A DNA stretch of 64,000 nucleotides from Aggregicoccus sp. 17bor-14 (GTDB lineage: Bacteria > Myxococcota > Myxococcia > Myxococcales > Myxococcaceae). Of this stretch, positions 50,972 through 60,843 are shown piece after piece (positions within the stretch are counted from its first letter, which is position 1; each line of letters opens with the position of its first letter). The notes below the pieces were generated by a model. The model was not told the DNA's origin. It was given only the letters and a program-made list of their open reading frames with translations, and did no database searches. The translations under genes and the position numbers were made by a program. The DNA is taken from contig NZ_VJZZ01000001.1 in NCBI RefSeq assembly GCF_009659535.1, positions 387,424 to 451,423 of the forward strand. The letters are read 5' to 3'.

Positions 50972-51403
50972 ATGGCCATCTCGGTGGGCAACGGCAGAGG
51001 CGGAGCGAAGAGCGAGATCAACGTCACACCGCTGGTGGACGTGGTGCTGGTGCTGCTCATCATCTTCATGGTGGTGACGCCGCAGCTGCAGCCGGGCAAG
51101 GACGTGAAGCTGCCGCAGGCCTCGGGGGCGCGCGAGGGCGCGCCGCCTCCTCCCGCGCTCGTGGTCTCCATCACGCAGGCGGGCGAGGTGTTCGTCGACG
51201 CCGCCTCGCGGCCCGCGGGCGCGGCGCTGCCGCAGCAGCTCACCCAGGCGCTGCGCGAGCAGCCGGGACGCAGGCTGGTCCTGCGCGGAGACCGCAGCCT
51301 CACCTACGGCGAGGTGCGCCGCGTGATGCAGGAGAGTCGCGCCGCCGGCGCACGCGGGGTGGCGCTCGCCGTGGAGCCGGGCAAGGCGGAGGGCGCGCGA
51401 TGA
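50972..51403 (+). CDS. ExbD/TolR-family biopolymer transport protein, first copy
   Basis: This 143-residue protein has the ExbD hallmarks. A short N-terminus with SEINVTPLVDVVLVLLIIFMVVTP is a single transmembrane helix carrying the conserved Asp that senses proton flow. A periplasmic domain follows. ExbD works with ExbB to energise TonB- or Tol/gliding-type systems. No ExbB is adjacent. AGGAGGACTC precedes the ATG at 50972. It overlaps the second ExbD gene by four bases. Confidence 0.93.
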   Translation: MAISVGNGRGGAKSEINVTPLVDVVLVLLIIFMVVTPQLQPGKDVKLPQASGAREGAPPPPALVVSITQAGEVFVDAASRPAGAALPQQLTQALREQPGRRLVLRGDRSLTYGEVRRVMQESRAAGARGVALAVEPGKAEGAR

Positions 51404-51846
51404 GGCCCCCGAAGCAGCGCCGCACCCTCCTCACGCCGCAGGGGCGCGCGAACGCGGACATCAACGTGACGCCCCTGGTGGACGTCGTGCTCGTGCTGCT
51501 CATCATCTTCATGGTGGTGACGCCGCTCGCGCAGGCGGAGCTGCCCCTCGCTCTTCCCAAGACGGCCATCGAGGAGTCCGGTGCATCCAGCAGCTCGCAG
51601 CTGCTGGTGAGCCTCGACGCGGCGGGGCAGCTGCGCGTGGCCGGCGCCCCCGTGCCCGCGGACGACCTCACCGGGCACCTGCGGCAGGCGCTCGCGCAGC
51701 GGCGGCCGGGCGAGCGGCAGGTCTTCTTCGAAGCTGCGGACGGCGCCAACTACGCCACCGTCGTGGCCGCGCTGGACGCCGTCCGGGACGCGGGCGCGGA
51801 GTCGCTGGAGGTGGTGACGGAAGCGCAGGGCTCGGTCCCCCATTGA
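51400..51846 (+). CDS. ExbD/TolR-family biopolymer transport protein, second copy
   Basis: The ATG at 51400 overlaps the previous stop (ATGA) and gives 148 residues. The transmembrane segment ADINVTPLVDVVLVLLIIFMVVTP is nearly identical to the first copy, including the essential Asp, but the periplasmic parts differ (LPLALPKTAIEESGASSSS). The pair is probably translated together and may form an ExbD heterodimer with an ExbB encoded elsewhere. Paired exbD genes are common in myxobacteria. Confidence 0.93.
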   Translation: MRPPKQRRTLLTPQGRANADINVTPLVDVVLVLLIIFMVVTPLAQAELPLALPKTAIEESGASSSSQLLVSLDAAGQLRVAGAPVPADDLTGHLRQALAQRRPGERQVFFEAADGANYATVVAALDAVRDAGAESLEVVTEAQGSVPH

Positions 51847-51954
51847 CCCGGGTGCCGATCCGCTCGCCTGCGGCCCGAGGCACCAGCCGGGTGCGGCGGC
51901 CCCCCCCGCCCGGTGCTTTCACCGGCGGACCGCACGCGCAATAGTGCGCAGAGC

Positions 51955-53597
51955 ATGAGCCCGGACGCCGCGAAGAGCGCACCGCAGGGTCCTCCCACCC
52001 CCACCCCGAGCGCACGCCTCGCGAGCGCCCACCGGCCCTTTGCCCGCGCGGTGGGCATGGGGCTCGCGCTGCTCGCGGCCATCGCAATCATCGGCCCTCT
52101 CATCTCCTACCGCAGCGACGTCAGCGCGAGCCGCGTGCAGATGCAGGCGCGGCTCGCCCGGGAGTCGGCGCTGTACGCGGACGCCCTCTCCCTGCACGTC
52201 TCGCTGCTGCAGGCCGAGCTGGAGCGCGTGGCCCAGCAGCCCGAGGTCAACCTGCGCGACGACACGGCCGCGCCGGAGGAGCTGCTCTTGCGCATCGCGC
52301 ACCAGGGCTCCTCGCTCTTCACCGGCGGCGTGGCGCTGCTGGACCTCCAGGGACAGGTGATCCGCAGCGAGCCGCACGGCCTCTTCGCGGCGAACACCGC
52401 GCTGCAGCGCTCGCCGTGGTTCCAGCGGGTGCTGGCCACCCGAGGCTCCACCGTGGACGTCTTCTCCGCGGGCGAGGAGACGCTGGCCGTGGCGGTGCCC
52501 GTGCGCAACGAGGGCGTGCTGCTGGGGCTGGTCCAGGCCTCCCACCGGCTCGTCCCCCAGCTGCACGACGAGGGCGAGTCGCTCGCGGTGCTGGGCCCCA
52601 CGGGCAACGTCCTCTTCCCCAGCAGCGCGCCCGCATGGGTGCGCCAGGGCGGGATGCTCGAGCGCGTGCAGGCGCTCGCGGCCGGCGGTGAGGGCGAGCA
52701 GTGGGAGCTCGCGGGAACGCCCGTCTTCGCGGCAGCCAACGCCGTGCGGGGCACGCCCCTGTGGCTGCTGATGATCGCGGACCAGCACGCCGCCATCGCC
52801 CCGCTGCGCGGCCGCATGCGCCTGCAGCTGCTCTTCATCGCGGTGCTCCAGGTGGCGACCCTGCTGCTCTTTGCGCTCTCGCTGCGCCGCATCTACCGCG
52901 GCTTCCTCGCCTTCGAGGCGCGGGTGACCCAGAGCGAGAAGCTCGCGGCCCTGGGCACCGCGTCCTCGCTGATCGCGCACGAGGTGAAGAACTCGCTCAA
53001 CGGGCTCGGGGCCGCCGTGTCGATGCTCGAGCTGGGCGGGGACGCGGCGACCTCGGTCAAGACGCTGCGGGGCCAGACCAACCGCCTCGGCCACCTCGCG
53101 CGCTCGCTGCTCGCCTTCGGAAAGCCTCCGGTGGTGCACCGCGTGCCGGTGCAACTGGAGCGCGTCGCGCAGGAGGCGGTGGACGGGCTCGCCGCGCTCC
53201 CGGAGCGCAGCGAGGTGCAGGTGACGGTGCACTCCGCGGGCCCGCTGCGCGTGCAGGCCGACCCGCTGATGCTGGTCACGGCGATCGACAACCTGGTGCG
53301 CAACGCCATCGAGGCGGCCGTGGGCGCCAAGGACCTGGGCCGCGTCAGCGCCCCCTGGGTGCGCGTGAGCGCGGAGCGCGATGGCCGCTGGGGGCAGGTC
53401 CGGGTGGAGGACAACGCCGGCGGCCCGCCACCCGGCTTCGAGGAGCGGCTCTTCGAGCCCTTCGTCACCTCCAAGCCCAAGGGCATCGGCCTCGGGCTCT
53501 CCATGGCCCACCAGGCGCTGGTCGACATGGGCGGCAAGCTCGCCTTCGAGCGCACCGCGGCCGGAAGCTGCTTCACCGTGAGACTCGAGCTCGAGCC

Positions 53598-53601
<4 letters not shown>
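51955..53601 (+). CDS. Membrane sensor histidine kinase
   Basis: The ATG at 51955 gives 548 residues. One transmembrane helix (VGMGLALLAAIAIIGPLISY) precedes an extracytoplasmic sensor of about 230 residues with Cache-like features (SLFTGGVALLDLQGQVIRSE and TLAVAVPVRNEGVLLGLVQAS). A second helix (LLFIAVLQVATLLLFALSL) follows, then a HisKA domain with H-box LIAHEVKNSLNGL and an ATPase domain with DNLVRNAIEAAV (N box), VEDNAGGPP and GIGLGLSMAHQ. It phosphorylates the response regulator encoded next, with a four-base overlap. Both probably control the RND operon just downstream. The ligand is inferred to be a metal, without direct evidence. Confidence 0.94.
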
Positions 53602-54950
<1,349 letters not shown>

Positions 54951-54957
54951 GCGGGGG

Positions 54958-54980
54958 CCGCTGAAAGAATCCTTCAGCGG
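54958..54980. promoter_or_regulatory. Inverted repeat 1, probable activator site upstream of the RND operon
   Basis: The arms CCGCTGAA (54958-54965) and TTCAGCGG (54973-54980) are perfect, separated by 7 bases. The CTGAAAG and TTCAG elements repeat in the second site 32 bases away. It begins 7 bases after the stop of the sigma-54 regulator. It is a likely binding site for that regulator. Confidence 0.65.
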
Positions 54981-54990
54981 CGGGCAGCCC

Positions 54991-55011
54991 CGCTGAAAGT
55001 CCCTTTCAGCG
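54991..55011. promoter_or_regulatory. Inverted repeat 2, probable activator site upstream of the RND operon
   Basis: The arms CGCTGAAAG (54991-54999) and CTTTCAGCG (55003-55011) are perfect, separated by TCC. Its centre is 32 bases, about three helical turns, from the centre of inverted repeat 1. It lies about 87 bases upstream of the start predicted from the -24/-12 element, the usual distance of sigma-54 enhancer sites. It could also be a transcribed hairpin, but no T-run follows. Confidence 0.65.
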
Positions 55012-55061
55012 CGCGCGGAGGGGACGAGGACAAGCGCGCGGAATCACGTGCCCCACGCGCG

Positions 55062-55077
55062 CGGCACGGGCCGTGCT
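55062..55077 (+). promoter_or_regulatory. Candidate sigma-54 (-24/-12) promoter of the RND operon
   Basis: CGGCACGGGCCGTGCT aligns with the consensus TGGCACG-N4-TTGCA. The invariant GG (55063-55064) and GC (55075-55076) are spaced correctly and only two other consensus bases differ. It predicts a start near 55088, 23 bases before the TTG start codon, with GGAG between. A CCGTGCT/CGGCACGG pairing makes the site partly self-complementary. Confidence 0.6.
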
Positions 55078-55110
55078 CAGGGGAGCCCGCACACCTGCGG
55101 AGCCCCCACC

Positions 55111-56433
55111 TTGAGCCCCCGTCCCCTCGCCTCTCTCGGCGCCGTCGCCGCGCTGCTGCTCTCCCCCTTCGCCGCACACGCCGAGCCCCCCACCCTCGCC
55201 CTCTCGACCCTTCCCTCGCAGTCCGAGCTCGCGGCGCTGCTGTGGCAGCGCTCGCCGGAGCTCGCCGCCGCGCGCGGGCGCATCGGCGCGGCACTCGCGG
55301 AGCAGCGGCGCGCGCACCTGCTGCCCAACCCCGGGCTGGACCTGTCGTGGAACACCATCCCGGTGGGGCCGCACAACCCGGAGGACCTGCCCTTCTCGCA
55401 GATCCCCAACTACGCGGTCTCGGTGTCCGAGCTCATCGAGCTGGGCAAGCGCGGGCCTCGCCAGGAGGCCGCGGCGGCGAGCGCCCGCGCCTCCCGCCTC
55501 GATGCCGAGGAGCAGCTGCGCCAGCGCTACTTCGAGCTCCTGGACGTCATCGCCGAGGTCGCCGCCGCGGAGCTGCGCACCGCCGCGCTGACGCAGCTCT
55601 CCACGGACGCCTCGGATCTCACCGAGCTGCAGCGCCAGCGCGCGCGCCACGGGGACACCCCGGGCCTGGACGCGGACCGCGCCGAGCTGGAGGAGGCGCA
55701 CTTCAGCAGCGCGCTCGCCGAGGAGCACGCCCACCTGGCCAGCGCGCTGCGCACGTGCGCCGGCGCGGTGGGCATGCCCTGCGAGCCCTTCGGCAGCAGC
55801 GAGCGCGCGGCGGCGTTCCTCGCGCGCCTCCCCGAGGCCCCCGGCGGGGCGCCCACCGCGCAGCGTCCAGACCTCGCCTCGCTCGACGCCCAGGCGCAGG
55901 CCGCCCGCGCCCAGGGAGCCCTCGCCCGCGCCCACCGCATCCCGGATCCCACGCTGCGCGTGGGCTACGTGCGCGACCAGTTCGTCGCCGCGGGAAACCA
56001 GCCCAACAGCCTCTTCGTGGGCGCCTCCATTCCCCTGCCCCTCTTCGACCAGGGCCAGGCAGACGACCAGGCCGCGGCCGCCAGCGCCGGCGCCGCCGAG
56101 CGCGCGCGCACCTTGCTGCTGGAGAGCTCCCGCCAGCAGCTGCAGCAGCTCGCCGCAGAGCGCTCCCTGCTGGAGCAGCGCCGGTCCCGGCTGCAGGCGC
56201 ACACGCTGCCGCTCGCGCGCAGCGTGGTGCAGGACCTGCAAGCCGCCGTGAGTGCGGGCGGCGCGCCGCTCCAGGAGCTGCTGCTGGCGCGGCGCACGCT
56301 GGGCGAGACGTTGCTCGAGTCCGCCGACCTCGAGCTCTCCGCGTTCCGCCTCGCGAGCGCCCAGGCGCTCACCGCCGGCGCGCAGCCCCCGCTGCCGGCC
56401 GACCTCTCCGCGTCCCCTTCCTCCACTCCTTGA
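55111..56433 (+). CDS. TolC-family outer membrane efflux protein
   Basis: A TTG start at 55111 with GGAG nine bases upstream gives 440 residues and a clear signal peptide (PLASLGAVAALLLSPFAAHA). The mature protein has the two-fold helical repeat of the outer membrane efflux family: LLWQRSPELAAARGRIGAAL with ISVSELIELGKRG-type segments, and later LRVGYVRDQFV and GASIPLPLFDQGQADD. It forms the outer membrane duct of a CusC/CzcC-type pump with the adaptor and RND genes downstream. An in-frame start at 55048 would place non-signal sequence in front and is less likely. Confidence 0.9.
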   Translation: MSPRPLASLGAVAALLLSPFAAHAEPPTLALSTLPSQSELAALLWQRSPELAAARGRIGAALAEQRRAHLLPNPGLDLSWNTIPVGPHNPEDLPFSQIPNYAVSVSELIELGKRGPRQEAAAASARASRLDAEEQLRQRYFELLDVIAEVAAAELRTAALTQLSTDASDLTELQRQRARHGDTPGLDADRAELEEAHFSSALAEEHAHLASALRTCAGAVGMPCEPFGSSERAAAFLARLPEAPGGAPTAQRPDLASLDAQAQAARAQGALARAHRIPDPTLRVGYVRDQFVAAGNQPNSLFVGASIPLPLFDQGQADDQAAAASAGAAERARTLLLESSRQQLQQLAAERSLLEQRRSRLQAHTLPLARSVVQDLQAAVSAGGAPLQELLLARRTLGETLLESADLELSAFRLASAQALTAGAQPPLPADLSASPSSTP

Positions 56434-56444
56434 GCGAGCCCTCC

Positions 56445-57653
56445 ATGTCCCACGCCACCCACTCCGCCGCCCCTTCCGTCTCCTCCCCTGACGCGCCCCC
56501 TCCCTCGCCCCGCACCTTTCCGGCGAAGCGCGCGGCCCTGATCGTCACGCTCGCACTGGGCATCCTCGCGCTGGCCTTCCTCCTCCACCGGCGCGACCCG
56601 CAGCCCGCGCCCGCCGCCCCCGCCCTCCGCGCAGATGCCCAGGGCGTCACGCTCGCCCCGAACGCGCCGCAGTGGAAGTACGTGGAGCTCGCGGCCGCGC
56701 GCAGCGCGCCCGCGCTCGCGCCGCTGCCGGTGCCGGGCCGCGTGGACTTCGACGAGAAGCGCACCGCGAACCTGGGCGCACCGCTGGCCGGCCGCGTGGA
56801 GAGCGTGCGCGTGCAGCTGGGAGACAGCGTCAAGGCCGGTGACCGGCTCTTCTCCGTGCGCAGCGCCGCGCTCGCGGACCTCGCGCGCGAGGTGGCCAGC
56901 GCCCGCGAGGAGGTGGCGGTGAAGGCCCGGCTCGCCCAGCGCTCGCGCGAGCTGCTCGGGCTCAAGGCCACGGCCGAGAAGGACGTGCTGGAGGCCGAGG
57001 CCGAGCTCACCCAGGCGCAGCTCTCGCTGAAGGCGGCGCTCGCGAAGCAGTCCAGCCTCACGGTGGCCCCCGAGGGCGAGAACCTCTACTGGGTGCGCAG
57101 CCCCCGCGCGGGCACCGTGGTGGAGCTGGACGTGCACCCCGGCGCCGAGGTGGGGCCCGAGCGCGAGCGGCCGCTGGTGCGGGTGGCGGACCTGGACGAG
57201 CTGCGCGTGCTCGCGGACGTGAGCGAGGCGGACGCGGCCGACCTCGCGCAGGGCGGCGCGGTGCGTGTCGTCACGCAGGACGCCGCGCTGGAGCGCCCCG
57301 GCGTCATCGAGCACCTCTCCGAGGTGGTGGACCCCCAGCGCCGCACCCTCGAGCTGCGCGTGCGCGTGCCCAATGCGGACCACGCGCTGCGCCCCAACGC
57401 CTTCGTGGAGGTGGCCCTGGCCGCGGACCCGAGCACGCAGCGCGTGCGCGTCCCCGAGGAGGCCGTGGTGAGCGAGGGCGAGCAGAGCCTCGTCTTCGTG
57501 GCGCGCGCGCCCGACCGGCTCGAGCGCGTCCCGGTGGTGACCGGGCGCAGGCGCGGCGGCGAGGTGGAGCTGCGCTCGGGCCTGGAGCCGGGGGCGCGCT
57601 ACGTGGCCCGCGGCGCGCTGCTGCTGCTCAACCAGATCGATCTCGCGGACTAG
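56445..57653 (+). CDS. RND efflux periplasmic adaptor subunit (CusB/CzcB type)
   Basis: The ATG at 56445, 11 bases after the TolC-family stop, gives 402 residues. An N-terminal transmembrane anchor (AALIVTLALGILALAFLL) is followed by the barrel-sandwich domain (GRVDFDEKRTANLGAPLAGRVESVRVQLGDSVKAG), an alpha-hairpin of about 60 residues, and beta-barrel and membrane-proximal domains ending GLEPGARYVARGALLLLNQID. This matches heavy-metal efflux membrane fusion proteins. No His-rich N-terminal metal-binding tail is present. It bridges the RND pump and the TolC-family channel. Confidence 0.92.
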   Translation: MSHATHSAAPSVSSPDAPPPSPRTFPAKRAALIVTLALGILALAFLLHRRDPQPAPAAPALRADAQGVTLAPNAPQWKYVELAAARSAPALAPLPVPGRVDFDEKRTANLGAPLAGRVESVRVQLGDSVKAGDRLFSVRSAALADLAREVASAREEVAVKARLAQRSRELLGLKATAEKDVLEAEAELTQAQLSLKAALAKQSSLTVAPEGENLYWVRSPRAGTVVELDVHPGAEVGPERERPLVRVADLDELRVLADVSEADAADLAQGGAVRVVTQDAALERPGVIEHLSEVVDPQRRTLELRVRVPNADHALRPNAFVEVALAADPSTQRVRVPEEAVVSEGEQSLVFVARAPDRLERVPVVTGRRRGGEVELRSGLEPGARYVARGALLLLNQIDLAD

Positions 57654-57656
57654 GCC

Positions 57657-60600
57657 ATGTTCGAGAACATCGTCACCTTCTCCCTGAAGAATCGCAGCGC
57701 CATCGCCTTCCTCACGGTGCTCGCGGCCATCTGGGGCTACTTCTCCTTCCGCGACCTGACGGTGGAGGCCTTCCCGGATCCCACCGACACCCAGGTGGAC
57801 GTCATCACGCTGTTCGACGGTCAGCCCTCCGAGGAGGTGGAGCGGCAGATCGGCCTGCCCCTGGAGCGCGCCCTCAATGGCACGCCCGGGCTCGCGCGGC
57901 TGCGCAACCTCTCCATGTTCGGCCTCTCCTTCGTCACCATGACCTTCAACGACGGGGTGGACGGGCAGTGGGCGCGCCAACAGGTGCTCGAGCGCCTGCG
58001 CGACGCGGAGCTGCCGGAGGGGGTCACCCCGGAGCTGGGCGCCTTCGCCACGCCGATCGGCGAGGTGTACCGCTACTCGCTCAAGGGCGCCGGCGGCGAC
58101 CCGATGAAGCTGCGCACCCTGCAGGACTGGGTGGTGCGCCCCCAGTTGATGCGCGTGGACGGCGTCGCGGACGTGGTGAGCTACGGCGGGCTCGTGCGCG
58201 AGCTGCACGTGCAGCCGCGGCCCGGCCGCCTCGCCGCGTTCGGCCTCACGCTCGCGCAACTGGAGAGCGCCATCCACGAGGGCTCGGTGAACGCGAGCGG
58301 TGGCACCCTCGAGCGCGGCGCCGAGCAGTTCGTCATCCGCAGCGAGGGCCTGTTCCGCTCGCTGGAGGACCTGCGCAAGGTGCGCGTCGCCACCCACGAG
58401 GGCACGCCCGTGTTCCTGCAGGACGTGGCGGACGTGAGCGAGGGGTGGGCGCCCCGCCAGGGCGTGGTGAGCGTGGGCTCGCAGCTGGATGCGGTGGAGG
58501 GCATCGTGCTCATGCGTCGCGGCGAGAACCCCTCGGTGGTGCTCTCGCGCCTGCGCACGCAGGTGGAGGCGGTGAACGCCCGCCTCGCCGTGGACGGGGC
58601 CTCCATCGAGCCCTTCTACGATCGCACCGACCTGGTCTCCACCACCCTGCGCTCGGTGGGCCACAACCTGCTCGAGGGCGCGGTGCTGGTCACGCTCGTG
58701 CTCTTCGTGTTTCTCCTGGATCTGCGCGCAGCCCTGGTGGTGGCGGTGCTCATCCCCCTCTCGCTGCTCGCGTCCTTCATCTACTTGAAGCTGCGCGGCA
58801 TGTCGGCGAACCTGCTGTCCATGGGCTCCGTCGACTTCGGGGTCATCGTCGATGGCGGCGTGGTCATCATCGAGAGCATCCTCACGCGGCTCAGCCACGA
58901 CGAGGCGCGCGACGCCGGGCTCACGGCGACCGAGCGCATCCGCCGCGCCACCATCGCGGTGGTGCGCCCCACGGTGTTCGCGCTGCTGATCATCATCGCG
59001 GCCTACCTGCCCATCTTCATGCTGCAGCGGGTGGAGGGCCGCATCTTCGCCCCCATGGCCAACACCGTGGTGGCCGCGCTGGTGGGCGCACTGCTCTTCT
59101 CCATCACCCTGGTGCCGGTGCTCGCGTCCTTCGTGTACCGGGGCAAGGTGAAGCACCGCGAATCGCCGGTGCTGCGCTGGGCGGACCGGGCCTACGCCCC
59201 CACGCTGCGGCTCGCGCTGCGCCGCCCCGCACTGGTCATCGCGCTCGCGAGCGCGGCGCTGCTCGCCGCGGGCCTCACGCTCCCGCACCTCGGCTCCGAG
59301 TTCCTGCCCGAGCTCAACGAGGGCGCGCTGTACATGACCTTCACCCTGCCCTCGAACGTGTCGCTCACCGAGGCACGCAAGCTGGTGCCGCGCATCAACC
59401 AGCTCATCCAGGCGAAGCCGCAGGTGGAGTCGCTGCTCTCCCAGCTCGGCCGGCCCGAGGACGGCACGGACGCCACCCTCACGAACAACCTCGAGTTCTT
59501 CGTGAAGCTCAAGCCCCCCGAGGAGTGGCCGGCGAGCACGCCCACGCTCGCGGACGTCATCGCGGACCTGCAGTCCTCCATCGACGAGATCCCCGGCCTC
59601 GAGGTGAACTTCAGTCAGCCCATCCGCGACAACGTCAACGAGAGCATCAGCGGCCAGTTCGGCCAGGTGGCCGTGAAGCTGTACGGCGACGACCTGGTCG
59701 CGCTCCAGAAGCAGGCCGAGCGGGTGAAGGACGCCATCTCGAAGGTCGCGGGCGTGGCGGACCTGGGCATCGTGAAGAGCGGCGAGGTGCCCCAGCTGCA
59801 GGTGGTGCCGGACCGCACCGCGCTCGCGCGCCACGGCATGTCGCTGGGCGACTTCCAGCACGTCTTCCAGACCGCGGTGGGCGGCCGCCCCGTGGCGGAC
59901 TTCTGGGAGGGCGAGCGGCGCCTGGACGTGGTGATGCGCCTGCCGCTCTCCAGCCGCGACGACGTGGAGAAGCTGCGCAAGCTGCGCGTCCCCGTGGAGG
60001 GGGGCGCGAGCATCCCCCTCGAGGCGCTCGCCCGCGTGAGCACCGGCCTGGGGCGTGCCTCCATCAACCGCGAGAACGGCCGGCGCTACATCGGCATCCG
60101 GATGAACGTGCGCGGCCGCGACCTGGGCGGCTTCGTGAGCGAGGCGCGCGCCCGCGTCGCCCGCGAGGCACCGCTCGAGGGCGGGATGCAGATCGAGTGG
60201 GGCGGCGAGTTCGAGAACAAGGAGCGGGCGATGAACCGGCTGCTCACCGTGGTGCCGGTGGCGCTGCTGCTCACCCTGCTGCTGCTCTTCAAGGCCTTCG
60301 ACTCCTTCGGGCGGGCGGTGCTCACGCTGCTCAACGTGCCCTTCGCCCTGGTGGGAGGCGTGTTCGGGCTCGCGCTCGCCGGGATGCCCGTGTCGGTGGC
60401 CGCCTGCGTGGGCTTCATCGCGCTCATCGGGCAGGCCGCGCTCAACGGCGTCCTGGTGACCTCGGCGATCGCGGAGCGGCGCAGCGCGGGCGAGCCTCTG
60501 GACGAGGCCATCGTGCGCGGCTGCCGCGAGCGGCTGCGGCCCGTGCTGATGACGGCGGCCCTGGCCGCGCTCGGCCTCGTGCCGGCGGCGATGAGCCACG

Positions 60601-60788
60601 CCATCGGCTCCGAGACGCAGCGGCCCCTGGCGGTGGTGATCGTCTTCGGCACGCTGTCCGCGTGCTCGCTCACCATGGTCCTGCTCCCGGTGATGTACCG
60701 GCTCTACGCCCGCTGGGGCGAGCGGGTCATCGAGGTGCGCGCCCCCCGCGAGGACACCGTGCACGAGGGCAGCTCCGCCGCGAGCTGA
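57657..60788 (+). CDS. Heavy-metal efflux RND transporter (CzcA/CusA family)
   Basis: This 1043-residue pump starts three bases after the adaptor stop. It has 12 membrane helices and two large periplasmic loops, with the HME-RND segments FPDPTDTQVDVITLFDGQPSEEVERQIGLPLE near the N-terminus and GSVDFGVIVDGGVVIIESIL in helix 4. The HME1 (zinc/cobalt/cadmium) signature DFGxxxDGAxxxVEN is close, with G for A and S for N, so the metal is uncertain. It should expel metal cations using the proton gradient. A GC-rich hairpin follows the stop. Confidence 0.95.
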   Translation: MFENIVTFSLKNRSAIAFLTVLAAIWGYFSFRDLTVEAFPDPTDTQVDVITLFDGQPSEEVERQIGLPLERALNGTPGLARLRNLSMFGLSFVTMTFNDGVDGQWARQQVLERLRDAELPEGVTPELGAFATPIGEVYRYSLKGAGGDPMKLRTLQDWVVRPQLMRVDGVADVVSYGGLVRELHVQPRPGRLAAFGLTLAQLESAIHEGSVNASGGTLERGAEQFVIRSEGLFRSLEDLRKVRVATHEGTPVFLQDVADVSEGWAPRQGVVSVGSQLDAVEGIVLMRRGENPSVVLSRLRTQVEAVNARLAVDGASIEPFYDRTDLVSTTLRSVGHNLLEGAVLVTLVLFVFLLDLRAALVVAVLIPLSLLASFIYLKLRGMSANLLSMGSVDFGVIVDGGVVIIESILTRLSHDEARDAGLTATERIRRATIAVVRPTVFALLIIIAAYLPIFMLQRVEGRIFAPMANTVVAALVGALLFSITLVPVLASFVYRGKVKHRESPVLRWADRAYAPTLRLALRRPALVIALASAALLAAGLTLPHLGSEFLPELNEGALYMTFTLPSNVSLTEARKLVPRINQLIQAKPQVESLLSQLGRPEDGTDATLTNNLEFFVKLKPPEEWPASTPTLADVIADLQSSIDEIPGLEVNFSQPIRDNVNESISGQFGQVAVKLYGDDLVALQKQAERVKDAISKVAGVADLGIVKSGEVPQLQVVPDRTALARHGMSLGDFQHVFQTAVGGRPVADFWEGERRLDVVMRLPLSSRDDVEKLRKLRVPVEGGASIPLEALARVSTGLGRASINRENGRRYIGIRMNVRGRDLGGFVSEARARVAREAPLEGGMQIEWGGEFENKERAMNRLLTVVPVALLLTLLLLFKAFDSFGRAVLTLLNVPFALVGGVFGLALAGMPVSVAACVGFIALIGQAALNGVLVTSAIAERRSAGEPLDEAIVRGCRERLRPVLMTAALAALGLVPAAMSHAIGSETQRPLAVVIVFGTLSACSLTMVLLPVMYRLYARWGERVIEVRAPREDTVHEGSSAAS

Positions 60789-60800
60789 GGCCGACGCGCG

Positions 60801-60824
60801 GCGCCCGGACGCATCGCCGGGCGC
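60801..60824. terminator. Terminator-like hairpin at the end of the RND operon
   Basis: The perfect arms GCGCCCGG (60801-60808) and CCGGGCGC (60817-60824) lie in the 55-base gap between the convergent RND and lipoprotein genes. A second overlapping GCGCCCGG motif follows. There is no T-run. Confidence 0.45.
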
Positions 60825-60843
60825 TGCGCCCGGCGGGCGCCGC

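Follow-up and report, generated by a model that had tools for sequence, protein, structure and literature searches.

Two-component systems are linked to tripartite HME-RND metal pumps in CzcRS-CzcCBA and CusRS-CusCBA, where the regulators are OmpR-type and the promoters are of the sigma-70 class. To our knowledge, HME pumps with dedicated regulators are usually under OmpR-type, MerR/ArsR-type or ECF sigma control. In the ZraSR-ZraP system of Escherichia coli, a membrane kinase and an NtrC-type sigma-54 activator are linked to metal/envelope stress. Six heavy-metal efflux systems of M. xanthus were reportedly the subject of a 2010 study in AEM. Sigma-54 control of RND efflux has precedent in myxobacteria: the NtrC-like regulator Nla28 of M. 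xanthus binds and controls the promoter region of MXAN7147, a locus annotated as RND/ABC efflux (PMC9765219). We analyzed a 64,000-nucleotide stretch of DNA from Aggregicoccus sp. 17bor-14 (the window), in which a control region of 120 bases, two palindromes and then a sigma-54 promoter, is found between a two-component regulator and a metal-efflux pump. We consider it highly probable that this region serves as the regulated promoter for the pump operon, at which a dedicated NtrC-type two-component system would activate an HME-RND pump via sigma-54. The layout is very probably the real on-switch of the pump and not a chance pattern, because a large part of the myxobacterial family has the same arrangement ahead of the related pump.

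The two palindromes are located downstream of the regulator stop codon (54950) and are copies of one 21-bp motif, CGCTGAAAG-N3-C[C/T]TTCAGCG. The distal palindrome, CCGCTGAAAGAATCCTTCAGCGG (54958-54980), has arms CCGCTGAA (54958-54965) and TTCAGCGG (54973-54980) and is centred at 54969; the proximal palindrome, CGCTGAAAGTCCCTTTCAGCG (54991-55011), has arms CGCTGAAAG (54991-54999) and CTTTCAGCG (55003-55011) and is centred at 55001. Both are putative regulator sites, with pairs kept in orthologs and helical-step spacing of the proximal site in relatives. The perfect inverted repeats described in the first-pass annotation were thus present to the base, with centres 32 bases apart. The sigma-54 -24/-12 match, CGGCACG-GGCC-GTGCT (55062-55077, forward strand), was also found in the place proposed for it. 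It consists of CGGCACG (55062-55068), N4 and GTGC (55073-55076), and the required GG-N10-GC is present. Compared with TGGCACG-N4-TTGC, it keeps the invariant GG/GC and deviates from the consensus at two positions. This match is weaker than those at the homologous position in orthologs (CGG and GTGC vs. TGG and TTGC). With C55076 taken as -12, the predicted transcript start (+1) is at 55088 on the forward strand; the palindrome centres are then at about -119 and -87, the same distances as estimated previously, and the predicted leader to the TTG start at 55111 is 23 nt. A GGAG sequence (55099-55102, forward strand), the predicted ribosome-binding site, is 8 nt ahead of this TTG. The proximal centre is 62 bp from the GG of the -24 element. 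No sigma-70 promoter was detected in the gap between regulator and pump.

The sensor histidine kinase (51913-53601, forward strand; a later ATG or GTG start is possible) has an N-terminal TM segment, a weak dCache-type periplasmic domain (dCache_1 match at 4.9e-6, under the Pfam gathering score), and HisKA and HATPase_c domains (Pfam). ZraS is the nearest solved structure to its catalytic core. Two tandem exbD/tolR-like genes (50972-51846) are found just upstream of the kinase; by similarity, no such pair was seen beside the kinase in the relatives' loci examined. The NtrC-family response regulator (53598-54950, forward strand) overlaps the kinase stop codon (ATGA) and contains Response_reg, Sigma54_activat and HTH_8 domains, all above the Pfam cut-offs. 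The receiver, the sigma-54 AAA+ domain with GAFTDA and the Fis-type HTH identify it as an NtrC-family bEBP, and the paired upstream palindromic sites conserved in orthologs are as expected of putative bEBP binding sites. The assignment of a sigma-54 activator and its kinase directly upstream of the control region was well founded. The genome has one rpoN gene. GAFTDA is kept in nearly all regulator orthologs and accounts for 13 of the 62 motifs found in other relatives' loci. It is listed as an activation-competent variant, and the Desulfovibrio EBP DVU2106, which carries GAFTDA, has assigned target operons (PMC4641369); the effect of GAFTDA is unknown in one regulator (PMC10714721). An rpoN-mutant test of the promoter is probably unworkable, because M. 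xanthus reportedly does not survive the deletion of sigma-54 (PMC12316311, citing Keseler & Kaiser 1997).

No gene is found between the regulator and the pump, and the three pump genes are all on the forward strand. The CzcC-like outer membrane factor (55111-56433; Pfam OEP) begins with the TTG, followed by a signal peptide. A longer version of this protein from a GTG at 55048 was disfavoured, since it would swallow the promoter. The CzcB-like periplasmic adaptor (56439-57653; Pfam HlyD_D23) probably starts a few codons in, at ATG 56445. It passes the general RND adaptor model TIGR01730 and fails the cut-off of the CzcB/NccB subfamily model TIGR00999 (145.4 vs. 319.3), so that the pump is not CzcCBA in the strict sense. 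The ZneA/CzcA-like HME-type RND transporter (57657-60788) scored 957.6 bits with TIGR00914 (cut-off 701.45). The nearest solved structure to the transporter is ZneA (774 bits across the whole length), with CusA at ∼561. The Zn-site ligands of ZneA, which we take to be E136, D602, and D654, are aligned with E136, D605, and D658 of the transporter. A perfect inverted repeat, CGCCGGGCGCTGCGCCCGGCG (60815-60835), is present between the transporter stop codon and a convergent gene, and is a possible bidirectional terminator.

The regulator was searched in 145 genomes of the order and the outer membrane factor (OMF) in 96 genomes of the family; for each locus the surrounding DNA was extracted and oriented, and the gaps before the pump were read. 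Kinase-regulator-pump synteny is widespread among the relatives, and Corallococcus has an ortholog. In the ortholog half-sites GA and TC can stand in for each other, a variation that the exact motif of the window does not capture. The ortholog gaps contain paired CT[GA/TC]AAG-N3-CTT[TC/GA]AG sites and a -24/-12 element that is often stronger than that in the window (e.g., CGGGCACACGGCTTGCG and CGGGCACGCGCCTTGCC). Thirty pump loci were fetched, window included, and 19 passed the full composite rule, a count that is partly circular since the scoring scheme was built after the ortholog sites were known; shuffles, whole-locus scanning, and three regulator-less genomes served as safeguards. The paired repeats do recur in related RND operons, with GA or TC in the half-site. 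Three further loci (L087, L102, L104) have paired sites and an altered -12, and four have a strong -24/-12 with either diverged sites (L092, L099) or one weak site (L090, L093). The composite is missing in the remaining four (L078, L096, L105, L106). L078 is a second copy, and the other pump copy in the same genome (L068) has sites; the other three are from genomes (G090, G133, G130) with a related OMF and no regulator match at E ≤ 1e-100. The GC of the -12 is replaced by GG or GA in three of the 30 pump loci and also in L101 and L103, both of which pass the scan. One lineage (L063, L067, L068, L069, L073, L074) carries a [T/C]TGGC-type -24 with GG/GA at -12, e.g., TTGGCCCGCCGCTTGGAATG. GG/GA at -12 is possibly a lineage-specific sigma-54 promoter variant.

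Scanning of ∼636 kb of loci on both strands gave 23 composites, all directly upstream of an outer-membrane-factor or SulP gene. One of them (L072) is from a genome of another family with the gene order pump-kinase-regulator. Among 13 extra, more distant loci, a single composite at a score of at least 39 was found (L195, 39.7), away from any pump start. Three sister-family loci that were read directly have a -24/-12 ahead of the pump; several sister-family loci keep the kinase-regulator-pump order with a -24/-12, and L198 has a perfect CTGAAAGGATCTTTCAG, 72 bp from the -24. The pump is apart from the regulator in G082, G129, G072, G073, and G074 (L081, L089, L094, L095, L097); in G075 and G052 (L100, L068) the two are also separated, by a shorter gap. 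In these separated loci the sites and the promoter adjoin the pump, and none is seen downstream of the regulator. Of 27 genomes in the genus taken to be Myxococcus, a single one yielded an OMF relative at E ≤ 1e-50. The proposal of an enhancer pair and sigma-54 promoter for the RND operon, served by the adjacent kinase and regulator, is supported by these comparisons: the layout is conserved, moves with the pump, and is absent from the three genomes without a regulator match at E ≤ 1e-100.

A second group of loci has the transporter SulP downstream of the regulator (L056-L062, L064, L066, L071, L075), and the SulP-linked regulators form a well-supported clade (99/98). The SulP loci contain the same motif in pairs and a near-consensus -24/-12 such as TTGGCACGGCTCTTGCC. 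In L056, the one locus read, a beta-carbonic anhydrase gene follows SulP (both named from sequence). Exact matches to the motif in six further genomes numbered 10, of which 9 fall in these pump or SulP control regions. From the layout we infer that a duplicated regulator would drive the SulP transporter operon via the same architecture.

For the locus in the window we infer the following series of events. In the presence of the signal, the membrane kinase would phosphorylate the NtrC-type regulator, and regulator dimers would bind to the two CTGAAAG-N3-CTTTCAG palindromes ∼119 and 87 bp upstream of the presumed transcript start. The bound regulator would assemble into an AAA+ oligomer, which would loop to the sigma-54 RNA polymerase waiting at -24/-12 and open the complex. 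The outer membrane factor-adaptor-RND operon would then export a divalent metal, probably Zn-like. What the sequences show is that the sites and the promoter are present and conserved, that they go with the pump and the regulator, and that their distance is kept in helical steps. Metal as the direct signal for the kinase is the weakest step, because the kinase sensor domain shows no conserved His/Cys/Met metal-ligand cluster. It is a serious possibility, although not the one we favor, that the architecture is right and the pump serves as a general output for envelope or ion stress under a kinase that does not sense metal; this is compatible with the series above except for its last step. Such a reading would fit the sensor, whose one well-conserved His is also found in the SulP-linked paralog, and the paralogous system, which controls a SulP transporter (with the beta-carbonic anhydrase adjoining in the locus read) and no metal pump. 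The transporter itself argues for metal, since it clearly belongs to the HME family, is nearest to ZneA among solved structures, and matches the presumed Zn-site ligands of ZneA.

The pairing of the regulator with the sites was deduced from sequence, and palindromic operators are common to many regulator families. The sites could in principle be true operators that belong to a different protein, either a repressor or a further activator, and not to the adjacent NtrC-type regulator. We regard this as improbable: the sites co-occur with this regulator clade and are missing in the three genomes without it, they recur with the SulP-linked paralog, and their distances upstream of a -24/-12 are those typical of enhancers. 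In addition, the sites have diverged in one regulator subclade whose HTH is altered. The regulators of this subclade (L047, L054), in which SYPT of the HTH is replaced by AYAT, pair with ATTGCAG-N3-CTGCAAT sites (L099 and L092, respectively), and these loci retain a strong promoter. The two pairs represent one evolutionary event and are a candidate case of regulator-operator co-divergence.

The distance from the centre of the proximal site to the GG of the -24 is 49-52 bp in most pumps, 60-62 bp in the window and some relatives, 60-63 bp in the SulP loci, and 72-73 bp in two loci. The distance classes of 49-52, 60-63, and 72-73 bp are one helical turn apart. The rule chose the farther site (80) in L098/L053, whose third listed site, TTCAAAAAAGCTTGAAG, is at 52. 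When the distances were collapsed by lineage, a Rayleigh test gave R of ∼0.8 at a 10.5-bp period; this value is descriptive, as the lineages are not fully independent and the SulP set is a single clade. The site-to-site spacing is looser, at 21-34 bp in relatives, with 43 bp scored at L064, a SulP locus. Conservation applies to the distance from the proximal site to the -24, not to that from site to site. The three helical turns previously noted between the two sites hold in the window and fail as a general rule.

The palindromes could alternatively be RNA hairpins that end or stabilize the kinase-regulator transcript, next to an accidental -24/-12 match. Both fold well (-16.1 and -12.0 kcal/mol) and sit just past the regulator stop codon. 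We rejected this reading, which we rate as slightly less probable still than operators of another protein: the hairpins are good ones and come without a T-tract terminator, many ortholog sites (CTGAAAGGATTTTGAAG) are not RNA-complementary across the core, the spacing relative to the -24 follows helical steps, and in the separated loci the sites stay by the pump and are absent behind the regulator.

Perfect palindromes are common in the 64 kb of GC-rich DNA (64 with arms of at least 8, many overlapping), and -24/-12 matches with the score of the window promoter occur four times on its two strands. The window motif at one mismatch or less is found only in these two places in the 6.9 Mb genome (next best, three mismatches), and the relaxed ortholog-derived motif finds only two further one-mismatch places. 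This near-uniqueness fits the description of the cassette as self-contained. The composite of two sites and promoter was found once in the window, both strands searched, and was reproduced by none of 3000 dinucleotide-shuffled versions of the upstream region. Each element alone is unremarkable; the conjunction is remarkable. A chance pairing of GC-rich palindromes with a promoter-like match, to which the commonness of the single elements would lend itself, has a negligible probability and is already refuted computationally by the shuffles, the near-uniqueness of the motif, and the layout kept across genera and in sister families.

Returning to the sigma-54-controlled pump promoter, we tentatively suggest that it may be part of an order-wide module, in which the ancestral specificity CT[GA|TC]AAG-N3-CTT[TC|GA]AG was kept after duplication, the outputs split into metal efflux and SulP/carbonic anhydrase, and the enhancer-promoter distance evolved only by whole helical turns. 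If true, both outputs would answer to a common envelope or ion signal, and loop phase would be under strong selection. The module supplies testable DNA sites for one of many uncharacterised myxobacterial sigma-54 activators. Naturally occurring differences in site sequence, in spacing, and in the -12 element offer a test bed for the evolution of enhancer phase and regulator specificity.

The locus differs from the systems described previously. The ZraSR kind, to which it was assigned at first, is an analogy only: the window proteins are far under the cut-offs of the ZraS (78.7 of 479) and ZraR (256.1 of 760) models, and the output is an RND pump directly downstream of the regulator with no intervening gene. 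CzcRS and CusRS share with the window a two-component system linked to a tripartite pump, whereas the window regulator is NtrC-type with a sigma-54 promoter. The likeness to ZneCAB of Cupriavidus metallidurans comes from the transporter sequence, the RND subunit having ZneA as its closest solved homologue, and the sequences give no evidence for similar control. In the literature searched, we found no description of a dedicated NtrC/sigma-54 cassette with its own near-unique operator for an HME pump, and the Desulfovibrio sigma-54 regulon paper mentions no RND or heavy-metal target. Nla28 and MXAN7147 share with the window a myxobacterial NtrC-type activator, an RND-family efflux locus, a putative sigma-54 promoter (TGGCACG-N4-TCGCT), and clustered half-sites. 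However, Nla28, a starvation regulator, has a large regulon and the half-site CT(C/G)CG(C/G)AG, whereas the CTGAAAG-type sites in the window are nearly unique within the genome, and the one apparent target of the regulator lies next to it.
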